The translations under genes were made by a program, and so were the position numbers. A stretch of DNA of 64,000 nucleotides, from NCBI GenBank assembly GCA_012841865.1, contig DUTX01000063.1:1-64000 (forward strand), read 5' to 3'. This document shows, piece after piece, positions 3,328 through 60,236 of this stretch. Numbering within the stretch: position 1 is the stretch's first letter; the number at the start of each line of letters is the position of its first letter. This DNA comes from Acholeplasmataceae bacterium. GTDB lineage: Bacteria > Bacillota_I > Bacilli_A > ML615J-28 > CAG-698. Below the pieces are notes generated by a model. The model made no database searches. It saw only the letters and a list, made by a program, of their open reading frames with translations, and was not told where the DNA came from.

Positions 3328-3637
3328 TTTTTTTAAAAAAGTTTAAATAATTTATTTGAAACCCTAATAACAAAAAAGAAATATTAATATTAAGTTAGAC
3401 AAAACAGGAAAATCCTTAGATTTTTGTATCGAACTGTTAAACTCTTTTTTGTATAAAAAGCAAAAAAGATAATAAGATAATAGTATGGTTTTTTCTGGTT
3501 AAAGCAAAATTGACCATGAAAAAAATAAATTATGATAAAATAATTATTTAGTTGAGGAAATTTTCTAAATTCCGAATGATGAATCAAGGATTTAATGTCA
3601 TAAAATTAAAAAAAAATAAAAAATTAGCAATCATCAC
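3328..3637. other. AT-rich gap with no gene seen
   Basis: About 310 bases between the divergent XRE cassette and the hsp20 promoter. An open frame of about 65 codons exists on the minus strand, but it has no ribosome-binding site and low-complexity composition. I see no conserved element here. Confidence 0.5.
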
Positions 3638-3696
3638 TTGACATTGCTAATTCTTATGATATAATAGTATTAGCACTTAGGTATTAAAAGTGCTAA
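3638..3696 (+). promoter_or_regulatory. SigA-type promoter with CIRCE operator
   Basis: The -35 box TTGACA is at 3638-3643 and the -10 box TATAAT at 3660-3665. A CIRCE element follows at 3670-3696: TTAGCACTT, 9-bp spacer, AAGTGCTAA, with perfect 9-bp arms. HrcA binds CIRCE and represses heat-shock operons; hrcA is present at 60251. A hairpin (ACCGGA/TCCGGT, 3725-3742) lies in the leader. Confidence 0.95.
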
Positions 3697-3775
3697 TAAC
3701 GCATATAATAAAATGAAATTTTAAACCGGAAATGAATCCGGTAAAAAAAACAACAAAAAAGGAGGATTAGATTAT

Positions 3776-4180
3776 ATGAAAATTATCAGAAGGAGAAAAA
3801 ATTTCTTTGATAGTATTTTTGATGATTTCTTTGATTTTCCGACTAAAACACGTAAAGATCTGATGAGAACAGAGATAAAAAAGGTCGGAGATAATTATCA
3901 AATCGATGTAGAACTTCCCGGTTTTAATAAGGAAGATCTTAAAATTAATCTTGAGGACGGATATCTAACCATTTCCGCAAAACGCGAGCATGCGCATGAG
4001 GAAAAAGAAGCAGATGAAATCATCCGTTCTGAGCGTTATTACGGTGAATTTGCCCGTTCTTACTATGTCGGCAATATTTCCGAAAGCGAGATTACAGCAA
4101 AATACAATAACGGGATTCTGACAGTCTTGCTTCCTTGTGAAAGCAATACTGAGAATAAAAAATATATCACTATCGAATAA
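3776..4180 (+). CDS. Hsp20/alpha-crystallin small heat-shock protein
   Basis: 134 residues: a short Phe-rich N-terminal arm, then an alpha-crystallin domain from about residue 28. The VELPGFNKEDLKI and NGILTVLLP motifs mark its two ends. The GxLTVxLP sequence and the short C-terminal extension are typical. It is an ATP-independent holdase that keeps unfolding proteins soluble for DnaK and GroEL. A strong AAGGAGG precedes the ATG. It is first in an operon with groES and groEL and shares their CIRCE promoter. A second hsp20 lies at 26956 under apparently different control. Confidence 0.95.
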   Translation: MKIIRRRKNFFDSIFDDFFDFPTKTRKDLMRTEIKKVGDNYQIDVELPGFNKEDLKINLEDGYLTISAKREHAHEEKEADEIIRSERYYGEFARSYYVGNISESEITAKYNNGILTVLLPCESNTENKKYITIE

Positions 4181-4198
4181 TAGGAGGAATTGGAAGCT

Positions 4199-18431: not shown

Positions 18432-18722
18432 AAAAAAAGTCCCTAGGCAAATATATTTTTGCCTAAGGACGTATATCTTCATACGTGGTGCCACCTTAAT
18501 TTATTATTATTTCACAATAATAACCTCTATAAGTACAATAATACTCTATCTTGCTAACGGGAGAACCCGGTAACCCCTATGATTTCAGGATTACTACTCC
18601 TAGATGCGTTCACATTTGCTTGAAGGTACTGTCTTCCACCAATCACAGCTCGCTGAACCGAAGCAATATGTTACTATTTCTATTCATCGTCATTCATATA
18701 TAGTTGTAACTCGTATATTTTA
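18432..18722 (-). promoter_or_regulatory. T-box leader of the amino-acid ABC operon with promoter (-35 at 18740-18745)
   Basis: Promoter TTGACA (18740-18745), 17-bp spacer, TAAAAT (18717-18722). The leader has the T-box bulge AAGGTGGCACCACG at 18484-18497 and a terminator with a long GTCC..GGAC stem and T-run at 18432-18470. In Stem I the sequence GTGAACGCATC places CGC (Arg, 18606-18608) at the usual specifier position after GAA. Uncharged tRNA would pair here and allow read-through. The Arg reading is likely but ACG (Thr) is the alternative register. Confidence 0.88.
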
Positions 18723-25905: not shown

Positions 25906-26460
25906 TTGAAATTCAGTTTCGAACCCTTTCCTGAAATCAGAACTGAAAACCTGATTTTAAGAGAGTTAAGAATAAATGATTTGCAGGATTTATATGAAAT
26001 GCGGAAAGATCCGCGAATGAATTTATATGTCGATAATACAATCGATCAAAATATTAATGAAACCCTTGAATATTTGGAAAGAATGAATCGAGGGGTTGCT
26101 CTCGGGAAATGGATTATTTGGGGCTTGGAACTGAAAAGCGAAGTTCGTCTTATCGGAACAATCAGCATTTGGAATTTTAAGAAAGCTGAAGTTAGCGGCG
26201 AACTTGGTTATGGTCTCGATTTCCGTTATCATAAAAAAGGTTACATGACCGAAGCTTTAAAAGCGATTATTGATTATAGTTTTAAGACCCTGGAATTAAA
26301 GAGGCTGCTTGCTTATACTGAAATTAGAAACCGATCTTCAATTGCTTTGCTGGAACGATGCGGTTTCAAAAAAACTGGAGAGCTTGAAGAAAAAGGCATC
26401 ATCACAAATCTAAATTATGTGATGGCAATTTATCAACTCAAGAATAAAGGAGAAATATGA
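25906..26460 (+). CDS. GNAT acetyltransferase, RimJ/RimL type
   Basis: About 184 residues. I chose the TTG start at 25906 because AGAGAGG lies eight bases upstream. A -10 box (TATAAT, 25861-25866) rules out earlier starts. The RTENLILRELRINDLQDLYEMR N-terminus and the ELGYGLDFRYHKKGYMTEALKAI coenzyme A site mark it as a RimJ/RimL N-acetyltransferase. The substrate may be a ribosomal protein N-terminus or an antibiotic-like amine. Overlaps the ogt gene by 4 bp. Confidence 0.88.
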   Translation: MKFSFEPFPEIRTENLILRELRINDLQDLYEMRKDPRMNLYVDNTIDQNINETLEYLERMNRGVALGKWIIWGLELKSEVRLIGTISIWNFKKAEVSGELGYGLDFRYHKKGYMTEALKAIIDYSFKTLELKRLLAYTEIRNRSSIALLERCGFKKTGELEEKGIITNLNYVMAIYQLKNKGEI

Positions 26461-26906
26461 AAAAAATAATAACTGATTCTCCGCTTGGAAAACTGGTGAT
26501 TGTAGAAGAAGAGGGAATGATTACGGAAATCTATGCAACTGCTAAAGAGCACTTTATTTCGGAAACACCGCTCTTGTTGGATGCGAAAAGACAACTTGAG
26601 GAATATTTTCAAAAGCAAAGAAAAACTTTTGATTTACCGTTATTTCCTAAAGGAACTCCTTATCAAAAGCAAGTTTGGCAGGAATTATTGAAAATACCTT
26701 ATGGAAAAGTTGCTACTTATGGTGAGATTGCAAAAAGAATCGGAAATCCTCTTGGTGCGAGAAGTGTCGGCGGCGCCTGCAACAAAAATCCGATTATGGT
26801 TGTCATCCCTTGTCACCGTGTGATCGGTAAAACAGGCAACTTAACCGGTTATGCGGAAGGACTTGATAAAAAAGAGTTGCTTTTGAAACTGGAAAGTGAT
26901 TTATGA
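26457..26906 (+). CDS. ogt: Methylated-DNA--protein-cysteine methyltransferase
   Basis: 149 residues. The active-site PCHRVIG (Cys about 123) and the GARSVGGACNKNP helix-turn-helix are present. The enzyme removes methyl groups from O6-methylguanine by transferring them to its own cysteine. It is co-translated with the GNAT gene upstream. The stop is followed after 2-6 bases by a hairpin that acts as a terminator or covers the hsp20 start. Confidence 0.95.
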   Translation: MKKIITDSPLGKLVIVEEEGMITEIYATAKEHFISETPLLLDAKRQLEEYFQKQRKTFDLPLFPKGTPYQKQVWQELLKIPYGKVATYGEIAKRIGNPLGARSVGGACNKNPIMVVIPCHRVIGKTGNLTGYAEGLDKKELLLKLESDL

Positions 26907-26908
26907 AT

Positions 26909-26955
26909 AAAAACCTCCGAGAAGTAAAATAATACTTTTAAAGGAGGTATTTTTT
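26909..26955 (+). promoter_or_regulatory. Candidate RNA thermometer / terminator hairpin before hsp20
   Basis: ACCTCC (26913-26918) is the perfect complement of GGAGGT (26943-26948), which is the ribosome-binding site of the next hsp20, eight bases before its ATG. An inner helix AAGTA/TACTT (26922-26926/26933-26937) and an outer A/T helix (26909-26912 with 26950-26953) extend the hairpin with an internal loop. A six-T run follows, so it could also terminate ogt transcription. No CIRCE is present here. Confidence 0.6.
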
Positions 26956-27393
26956 ATGAAACTGACACCGATTAAACATAATCATAGTTTTGATTTATTT
27001 AAGGATGAATTTTTTGAAGATTTTTTTGAATTTCCTTTTTCGCGTTTTGGTCGTAACATGCAAAAGATGAAGACCGATATTATCGAAACCAAAGACAAAT
27101 ACATTATTAATATCGATATTCCCGGTTATGATAAAAAGGATATCAAGGTTCATGTCGGTGACAATTACCTGACGGTTTATGTAAAGAAAGAAGAAGAAGC
27201 AACTGATGAAGCTCCGAAAGGCGGAAAATATGTATACCGTGAACGTTATGTCGGTACGGCATCCCGAAGTTTTTATATCGGAAATGTAAAAGAAAGCGAT
27301 ATAAAAGCCAAATATGAAAACGGAACTTTAACGCTTTCAATGCCGAAACTTAACAAAGAAGAAAAAGATTTGCGTTGGATAGATGTCCAATGA
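26956..27393 (+). CDS. Hsp20/alpha-crystallin small heat-shock protein, second copy
   Basis: 145 residues. The alpha-crystallin domain runs from about 38 to 135, with NIDIPGYDKKDIKVHV and ENGTLTLSMPK. It resembles the CIRCE-controlled hsp20 at 3776 in layout, including the Phe-rich arm (FFEDFFEFPF). It is a holdase chaperone. Its ribosome-binding site sits in a hairpin and it lacks CIRCE, so it may be controlled at translation. It follows the GNAT-ogt pair. Confidence 0.95.
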   Translation: MKLTPIKHNHSFDLFKDEFFEDFFEFPFSRFGRNMQKMKTDIIETKDKYIINIDIPGYDKKDIKVHVGDNYLTVYVKKEEEATDEAPKGGKYVYRERYVGTASRSFYIGNVKESDIKAKYENGTLTLSMPKLNKEEKDLRWIDVQ

Positions 27394-34343: not shown

Positions 34344-34616
34344 TTGACTTTCTAAAGTTTCTAGAATATAATATAGCAAAGCAAAGACTGAGAAGAGGAA
34401 GAGTAGCAGCCCCCCTTTTTCCCAGAGAGAGACGGTAGGTGCAAAGTCTTAAGAAGCGGTTGCGAAGGTCGCCTCGGAGTCGACAGCTTGAACTATGAGT
34501 AGAGTTGTCCGTCTGATCAGCGTTATTTGATTTCAAGCGTCAAAACTTTTTTTGTTTTGAAAATAAGGTGGTACCGCGGAAATTTTCGTCCTTAAGATTC
34601 TTCTTAAGGCTTTTTA
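34344..34616 (+). promoter_or_regulatory. valS T-box riboswitch with promoter
   Basis: Promoter TTGACT (34344-34349), 17-bp spacer, TATAAT (34367-34372). The T-box bulge AAGGTGGTACCGCG is at 34565-34578. A terminator (CCTTAAG/CTTAAGG, 34590-34609, T-run) precedes valS. In Stem I, GCGAAGGTCGCC offers GTC (Val) at 34468-34470 as specifier, which agrees with the gene controlled. Confidence 0.93.
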
Positions 34617-39172: not shown

Positions 39173-39775
39173 ATGAAAAAAAGGGAAATTGATATCTTTG
39201 GAATGCTACTTGGTTTGGTCATCGGTTGCATCCTCGGCTTCTTCCTATCTTCGCGAATCAATCTTAATGAGAAGCCCGAAGACAAACCGGCAATTACAGA
39301 AAAGGGGTATGTCCATCTCCTGCAGGTAGCAAAAGTGGAAGAACCTTCTGAAGCCTTTAAAATTTTGGAAGACCTTAATAAAAAAGGCCTGAAGGCTGTG
39401 GCAGTCAAAAAAGGGAACAATTCCCATTATATCTATGGCGGCATTGCTTTAGAAGAAGAGAACCTTGCTAGTTTGGCAGCAAGATATCTGGATCATGGCA
39501 TTCATACGATTGTCGTTAAAGAATACTTATTGGATAAACTAAATTCTGTGATTGAAAATGATGAAGAATGTGAATTTTGGAGCGAATGCATTAACAATCT
39601 TTTGAACAGTTTGGAAGATAAAGAAGTTGAAGTGAGTCCGAAATATGCTTTAAATCGCAAATATCCGGAAGTCTTAGTCGTCATATCCTTTCTAAAGGAA
39701 GATTATGATTCGGAGTCAACTCTCCTACTCTTACAACTGGATGCATATCGACTTATTGTAGAAACACTTGCTTAA
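39173..39775 (+). CDS. Membrane-anchored SPOR-like protein
   Basis: 200 residues; start at 39173 after GGGGGAG. One N-terminal transmembrane helix (IFGMLLGLVIGCILGFFL) is followed by a charged linker and a YVHLLQVAKV...AFKILEDLNKKGLKAVAVKK segment that resembles a SPOR fold, which binds peptidoglycan. The remainder is acidic. The SPOR call is by pattern only. The gene leads into radC, whose start lies 49 bases after this stop. Confidence 0.6.
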   Translation: MKKREIDIFGMLLGLVIGCILGFFLSSRINLNEKPEDKPAITEKGYVHLLQVAKVEEPSEAFKILEDLNKKGLKAVAVKKGNNSHYIYGGIALEEENLASLAARYLDHGIHTIVVKEYLLDKLNSVIENDEECEFWSECINNLLNSLEDKEVEVSPKYALNRKYPEVLVVISFLKEDYDSESTLLLLQLDAYRLIVETLA

Positions 39776-39824
39776 AAACGAAATCATCATCCCTGCCTCT
39801 AATATAATAATGAAGGAGGTAGGG

Positions 39825-40502
39825 ATGAGTTTTTTAGTAAAGGAGATTCCCGCAAGCGACCGGCCGAGGGAAAGACTGATTAAATATGGTGTGCGTTCGC
39901 TTTCCGACCATGAGTTGCTCGCAATTATTCTTCGGACCGGAACTAAGAATCTCTCGGTATTGGATCTTGCGAAAAGGGTATTGATAGAATTTCAGAATCT
40001 TAATCGCTTAAACGAAGCAACGGTTACGGAACTAAAGAAAATAAAAGGCATCGGTGAAGCCAAAGCGATTGAAATACTTGCTGCGATTGAATTGGGAAGA
40101 AGAATAAATCTGCCCGTAACTCCGAAATTAGTGCTATCCAATCCGTATCAATCCTATGCTTATTTAAAAGAGATTATCCAAAATGAAAGTCAGGAGCATT
40201 TGGTTTGCGTTTATCTGAATACTCAAAGTGAAGCAATCGCCACCAAAACCATCAGTATCGGTACTGTCAATCAAACCATTATTAATCCGAAAGATGTTTT
40301 AAAATGGGGTTTAAAATATTCCGCAACCGGTATCATCATCGCTCATAACCATCCTTCCGGAAATCCGCTTCCAAGCAAGGAGGATTTTCAAGTCACAAGG
40401 AGGATAGTGGAAGCTGCGAAACTCATGGATATCATCGTTGTTGATCATATCATTGTCGGCAAGAACAAGTATTATAGTTTCCTTGAAAACAAGAAAATAT
40501 AA
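39825..40502 (+). CDS. radC: RadC/JAB-domain protein
   Basis: 225 residues. A helix-hairpin-helix (ELKKIKGIGEAKAI) at about 65-80 is followed by a JAMM metalloprotease-like domain with HNHPSGNPLPSKEDF (ligands His, His, Asp). The start at 39825 is set by GGAGG. The role in DNA repair is disputed. In Bacillus radC lies upstream of the mreBCD-minCD-spoIVFAB region. Here the mre and min genes are missing and the spoIVFAB-like pair follows directly. Confidence 0.94.
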   Translation: MSFLVKEIPASDRPRERLIKYGVRSLSDHELLAIILRTGTKNLSVLDLAKRVLIEFQNLNRLNEATVTELKKIKGIGEAKAIEILAAIELGRRINLPVTPKLVLSNPYQSYAYLKEIIQNESQEHLVCVYLNTQSEAIATKTISIGTVNQTIINPKDVLKWGLKYSATGIIIAHNHPSGNPLPSKEDFQVTRRIVEAAKLMDIIVVDHIIVGKNKYYSFLENKKI

Positions 40503-60176: not shown

Positions 60177-60236
60177 TTGACAGTGCTAATTAAAAAAGGT
60201 ATAATAGTATTAGCATTTTAAGGTTTAGAGTGCTAA
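60177..60236 (+). promoter_or_regulatory. Promoter with CIRCE operator of the hrcA-dnaK operon
   Basis: -35 TTGACA (60177-60182), 17-bp spacer, -10 TATAAT (60200-60205). CIRCE at 60210-60236: TTAGCATTT, 9 bp, GAGTGCTAA. The left arm differs from a perfect palindrome at two positions. The promoter layout is nearly the same as at 3638-3696. Confidence 0.95.

Follow-up and report, generated by a model that had tools for sequence, protein, structure and literature searches.

A putative forespore promoter inside the ribosome-site hairpin of an hsp20 gene

The second hsp20 gene of the window (the whole stretch of 64,000 nucleotides that was analysed, to which positions refer unless a locus is named) has its ribosome-binding site paired in a hairpin, and a promoter-like match runs through this hairpin. 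From sequence and folding calculations, we consider it likely that the element is a forespore promoter embedded in a ribosome-site hairpin, which would insulate hsp20 against read-through RNA. During growth, RNA reading through from the upstream gene ogt would carry both arms, the 5′ arm would pair with the ribosome site and hsp20 would stay untranslated; the stem and the six T behind it may in addition terminate RNA entering from ogt. In the forespore, polymerase carrying sigma-F or sigma-G would begin transcription at about 26940, within the downstream half of the hairpin, and the RNA born there, which would be without the 5′ arm, would leave the ribosome site free, so that hsp20 would be made. 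The switch would be the position of the transcript start and not temperature. If this is true, the choice of start site governs compartment-specific translation, and a small heat-shock protein joins the forespore programme. Features are collected in Table 1.

Table 1. Positions of the elements around the second hsp20 and of two genes discussed with it
Feature	Position	Strand	Basis
First hsp20, with two CIRCE-like sites (3624, 3670) around a SigA-like promoter, the whole arrangement spanning 3624-3696; for contrast	3624..4183	+	
ogt, O6-methylguanine-DNA methyltransferase	26457..26906	+	ORF; PF01035 E 3e-34; TIGR00589
-35-like GAATAAA, overlapping the ogt stop codon	26905..26911	+	Common to spoIIR, spoIIQ and relatives' hsp20
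5′ arm: anti-SD ACCTCC (26913-26918) and 5′ strand of inner helix (26920-26926), in promoter spacer	26913..26926	+	Fold
-10-like ATAATA in hairpin loop, last two bases extending into inner helix	26929..26934	+	Fold, pattern match
Predicted transcription start region of the putative forespore promoter	26937..26943	+	Inferred from spacing; folds of starts 26935-26943
3′ arm: inner helix (26933-26939) and ribosome site GGAGGT (26943-26948)	26933..26948	+	Fold
T6 run behind the stem, possible tail of an ogt operon terminator	26950..26955	+	Sequence; not called by strict terminator scan
Second hsp20, 145 aa, probably forespore-expressed, as judged from sequence	26956..27393	+	PF00011 E 3.5e-18
SigK-like sporulation sigma factor, marking a sporulation genome	51671..52429	-	NF004471 284.6 bits, cut-off 252

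In the fold of 26900-26970, the ACCTCC of the 5′ arm is paired with the whole GGAGGT of the hsp20 ribosome site, and the two strands of the inner helix are paired inside. The minimum free energy was -18.4 kcal/mol, compared with -6.46 ± 2.23 kcal/mol for 200 shuffles (z -5.35), none of which equalled it. The initial annotation had placed a hairpin hiding the ribosome site at this position, and the fold bears this out. Moreover, the pattern CCTCC-N8-24-ATAATA-N2-14-GGAGG has a single match in the 64-kb window and none in 100 shuffles, and in a scan of 779 kb of the genome, with 606 predicted gene starts, the hsp20 leader has the second-lowest z (-3.7) for complementarity between the ribosome site and the sequence upstream. 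Both other genomes of the genus retain the hairpin, as do two from a different genus, in which the arms have changed. The hairpin is real, and in read-through RNA the ribosome site is calculated to pair with the upstream arm and thus to be sequestered. The nearest NCBIfam family of the encoded protein is Hsp18_Clos, below its cut-off.

The promoter elements came to light by comparison of the hsp20 leaders of relatives, several of which are CIRCE-less and have GTATAAA or GAATAAA, 16-17 bases and ATAATA just 5′ of the ribosome site. At the present hsp20, GAATAAA and ATAATA stand 17 nt apart, the -35 overlapping the ogt stop codon (26904-26906), the 5′ arm lying within the spacer and the -10 in the loop. 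With 6-7 bases between the -10 and the start, transcription would begin at about 26940, and thus the placement of these elements predicts, from sequence and spacing, that RNA of the embedded promoter is without the 5′ arm. By itself, the motif GNATAAA-N15-18-ATAATA shows no enrichment, with 23 sites in the genome versus 25 in the reversed control; those of its sites that lie directly 5′ of genes include spoIIR (PF09551, E 2.6e-20) and spoIIQ (SpoIIQ being its best match in NCBIfam, though below cut-off), and a relaxed promoter scan added spoVT to the genes with a forespore-like promoter. No such hairpin was found in the spoVT leader of this genome. When a ribosome site was made part of the pattern, 43 genomes gave 147 matches versus 40 in the reversed control (summed by hand). 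T precedes ATAATA in 63 of the 146 matches used, which resemble SigA promoters, and in this unsorted set pairing at p < 0.05 was reached by 15/83 matches without the T and by 5/63 with it.

The same -35 and -10 elements precede spoIIR, spoIIQ and spoVT, and resemble the forespore (sigma-F/sigma-G) consensus, GHATR..CATNMTA. The forespore consensus of C. difficile is reported to be similar to that of B. subtilis (PMC3789822), and in B. subtilis spoIIQ is a sigma-F gene and sspB a sigma-G gene (PMC5942855). We infer that the promoter in the hsp20 hairpin is of the forespore type, sigma-F and sigma-G being indistinguishable here. The genome holds, besides the SigK-like factor of Table 1, a SigG over one NCBIfam cut-off, a SigE-like protein, SASP and Gpr, and at E 1e-40 only one protein of the SigF/SigG type was found in it. 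All 10 hsp20 leaders with a forespore-like promoter sit in spoIIR-containing genomes, and sporulation genes are known in this part of the Bacilli (PMC10868615).

The same arrangement is found at other genes of this genome. In the spoIIR leader AAAAACCGCCAAT pairs with ATTGGTGGTTTTT, in the spoIIQ leader ACCTCGC pairs with GCGAGGT, and in both the -10 lies in or at the loop; at sigG a stem of the AAAATCCACC type closes over ATAATA and part of the gene's own ribosome site, with a less clear -35. A complementarity z of -3 is reached by 7/606 gene starts, and the four lowest values belong to spoIIR (-3.8), hsp20, a further gene whose pairing is weak (-3.6), and spoIIQ (-3.5). The sigG of this genome ranks only 59th of 606 (z -1.56), one reason being that its ribosome site begins within the loop, yet it passes the shuffle test of pairing described below. 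On the sequences compared, the architecture is a mark of sporulation genes (spoIIR, spoIIQ and in similar form sigG) and not of heat-shock genes.

Three other leaders with a ribosome-site hairpin were seen. At radC (window 39770-40502), a long hairpin of CATCCCTGCCTC with GAGGTAGGGATG pairs the ribosome site and the start codon, and ATAATA is in the loop; we know of no spore role for radC. A 72-aa reading frame with no family match (L125 5090-5308, minus strand) has a large ribosome-site hairpin with ATAATAATA in the loop, and is possibly a further forespore gene. In the leader of a LysM-like small protein (L130 12624-13106, minus strand), the hairpin over the ribosome site carries ATATAATA in its loop.

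An RNA thermometer, in which the hairpin would melt on heating and hsp20 would then be translated, was the reading of the initial annotation. In ROSE and fourU thermometers, a small heat-shock gene has its ribosome site base-paired within a hairpin, and the present case shares with them the type of gene and the sequestered site. The absence of CIRCE, which the annotation had pointed out and which we confirmed, also speaks for this reading. Unlike ROSE and fourU, the hsp20 hairpin shows no calculated melting near 37-45°C: when folding at different temperatures was carried out, as the annotation had suggested, pairing of the ribosome site was 0.99 at 42°C and still 0.97 at 65°C, with no opening in the physiological range. 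An Rfam search with the E limit relaxed to 10 still gave no match to a thermometer family. Moreover, the -10 is in the loop, so that RNA from the embedded promoter would be without the 5′ arm; a transcript start of this kind, inside the hairpin, had itself been named in the annotation as an argument against a thermometer, and it is what the promoter placement predicts. The genes spoIIR and spoIIQ, and similarly sigG, bear the same architecture and have no reason for heat sensing. Hence the hsp20 hairpin is, on these calculations, probably not a thermometer, and we regard that explanation as very unlikely.

CIRCE-like sites occur in the window only at 3624, 3670 and 60210, and control of the second hsp20 by CIRCE/HrcA was rejected, as no CIRCE is present upstream. 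The two former sites belong to the first hsp20, which is followed by a groES-like reading frame; the gene behind the site at 60210 is presumably hrcA. The window also has two T-box leaders above the Rfam gathering score, at 18462-18696 (minus strand) and 34381-34596 (plus strand).

For the leaders of relatives, the pairing energy of the ribosome site was compared with 500 shuffles of the upstream stretch, and p < 0.05 was reached by 7/10 leaders of hsp20, 16/20 of spoIIR, 10/20 of spoIIQ and 9/19 of sigG. Among other sporulation genes, none of the 10 SASP and none of the 7 gpr leaders reached it. An earlier run gave 14/20 for spoIIR and 10/20 for spoIIQ, as random shuffles shift borderline rows. 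An unconserved structure, which the initial annotation had listed as speaking against its reading, is not what these counts show: the hairpin is conserved, in 7 of the 10 selected hsp20 leaders, which were picked by eye for a promoter and no CIRCE and not for a hairpin. Two hsp20 leaders with neither CIRCE nor a clear promoter were left out (G013, L018; G082, L032). The spoIIR set comprises 20 of 23 matching genomes (in G028, G037 and G039 another start or reading frame had been picked) and the spoIIQ set likewise 20 of 23 (G018 and G036 not located; a weak match of G043 and extra matches of G005, G034 and G041 omitted); for sigG 19/20 were taken (G009 is partial), for gpr 7/8 (broken frame in G012) and for SASP 10 of 15 loci, the five others being of a second type, of which four gave p 0.82-0.98 and one was masked. 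Outside the order, 22 of 29 spoIIR leaders reached p < 0.05 (6/7, 8/14, 6/6 and 2/2 in four families), this class-wide set being the 30 best loci less G012, which had already been counted. A phylum-wide search had matches solely in genomes of the same class, and the comparison is confined to leaders of this class. In family f2, most of the spoIIQ leaders L205-L211 share TGTATCA/TGATACA around the ribosome site, which is a different hairpin whose 5′ arm overlaps the -10.

An AT-rich leader could also form stems of this sort by chance, and 39/606 gene starts of this genome indeed reach p < 0.05 in the same test (300 shuffles). The z of -5.35 at hsp20, the retention of the hairpin in the genomes of four relatives, in two of them with changed arms, and its recurrence on forespore genes make this scarcely credible.

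Operators often take the form of a dyad that flanks a -10, and the hairpin could be seen as a DNA operator over the promoter, bound by a repressor. The arms, however, are gene-specific and follow the ribosome site of their own gene, and G-U pairs are kept (16/179, 14/135 and 14/117 stem pairs), which indicates an RNA rather than a DNA site; we give the operator an extremely low probability. A comparison of related leaders for compensatory changes, proposed in the initial annotation, was partly positive. In an alignment of nine spoIIR stems, pairing holds for 90.6% of cells, compared with 42-64% when the partner is slid, a count biased toward structure as the stems were chosen for a common core motif. 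The covariation score of the spoIIR stem was 0.177, compared with 0.088 for shuffled stems, and was reached by 1/500 shuffles; the number of pairs changed on both sides was reached in 52/500 shuffles and is not a strong argument taken alone.

The probable source of read-through RNA at hsp20 is ogt, its co-directional neighbour, the stop of which is 49 nt 5′ of the hsp20 start. Throughout the leaders, a hairpin was found in 40/60 with a co-directional stop within 80 nt, compared with 2/26 of the others (Fisher p 2.7e-7, which overstates the association because the rows share ancestry and context is confounded with gene identity); for hsp20 alone it was found in 7/8 with a co-directional neighbour and 0/2 without. 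Exceptions are the spoIIR of G035 and G036 and the hsp20 of G093, where the hairpin is absent despite a near co-directional gene. By eye, the spoIIQ of G041 and G032 seem to have a terminator-like hairpin 5′ of the -35 instead, and in the spoIIQ of G012 the 5′ arm seems to lie upstream of the -35.

The hairpin could instead be mainly the intrinsic terminator of a GNAT-ogt operon, its overlap with the ribosome site being an economy of space. T6 follows the stem, and at least five T among the eight bases after the site are present in 5/7 hsp20 and 12/14 spoIIR hairpin leaders. Against this, a T run is present in only 1/10 spoIIQ hairpin leaders, all 10 of which hide the ribosome site, and thus hiding of the ribosome site is the common property; in addition, the strict terminator scan makes no call at the hsp20 leader. 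We think a mainly terminating role unlikely, although termination and sequestration are mutually compatible. Of the dual role that the initial annotation had offered, termination is plausible, and the thermometer half is unsupported.

To return to the embedded forespore promoter, we modelled the promoter-born RNA from seven bases past the -10 and compared it with the whole leader, using only leaders that passed the pairing test in its earlier run. The mean pairing of the ribosome site in read-through and promoter-born RNA was 0.93 and 0.08 for spoIIR (n = 14), 0.98 and 0.14 for spoIIQ (n = 10), and 0.86 and 0.15 for hsp20 (n = 7). By this prediction, the ribosome site is shut in read-through RNA and for the most part accessible in promoter-born RNA. 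In the promoter-born RNA of the present hsp20, a little weak pairing is left in the calculation: ∼0.5 when the RNA is longer (a weak fold, -4 to -5.4 kcal/mol) and 0.23 when it is short.

We lean toward the view that the early forespore genes of this class of spore-formers (spoIIR, spoIIQ, sigG and hsp20) commonly have their promoter placed within a hairpin that masks the ribosome site, a design kept or lost with a co-directional upstream gene. Proteins of the forespore such as SpoIIR and SigG are harmful or wasteful in growth, yet their genes here often stand directly behind a co-directional neighbour; with the promoter inside the hairpin, insulation would need no separate terminator, and the choice of start site would be the switch. 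If general, the design would help to predict the early forespore set from sequence and would account for leaders that look like thermometers. It further suggests that a small heat-shock protein may be produced in the developing spores of an uncultured lineage.

A literature search, with most subscription papers outside its scope, returned no report of the mechanism for spoIIR, spoIIQ or an hsp20 and no paper on hsp20 in the forespore, and for ribosome-site hairpin design in sporulation PMC5942855 was the sole relevant paper among those listed. B. subtilis sigG is described there as having a large leader hairpin, which cannot form in RNA from PsigG and is proposed to block translation of read-through RNA from the spoIIG promoter (PMC5942855). 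The two cases are alike in the forespore promoter, which here is putative, the co-directional neighbour and a hairpin directed, here by prediction, against read-through RNA. They differ in that the B. subtilis case, as far as that source goes, is one gene, sigG, whereas here spoIIR, spoIIQ and an hsp20 are concerned besides sigG. The same text describes a small RBS hairpin of B. subtilis sigG that does form in promoter-born RNA and dampens translation 2-4-fold (PMC5942855), a likeness to the present leaders insofar as a forespore gene has a partly hidden ribosome site. In phage T4 gene e, I-TevI and segB and in Aeh1 mobE, the DNA that encodes the 5′ strand of an inhibitory structure also contains a late promoter, and the long early RNA is blocked while the late RNA is translated (PMC3014915, PMC2988022). 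Those are late promoters timed by phage infection, whereas the present ones would belong to a cellular spore programme. The mechanism is already known; what is new is that it recurs at several forespore genes and that an hsp20 carries it.
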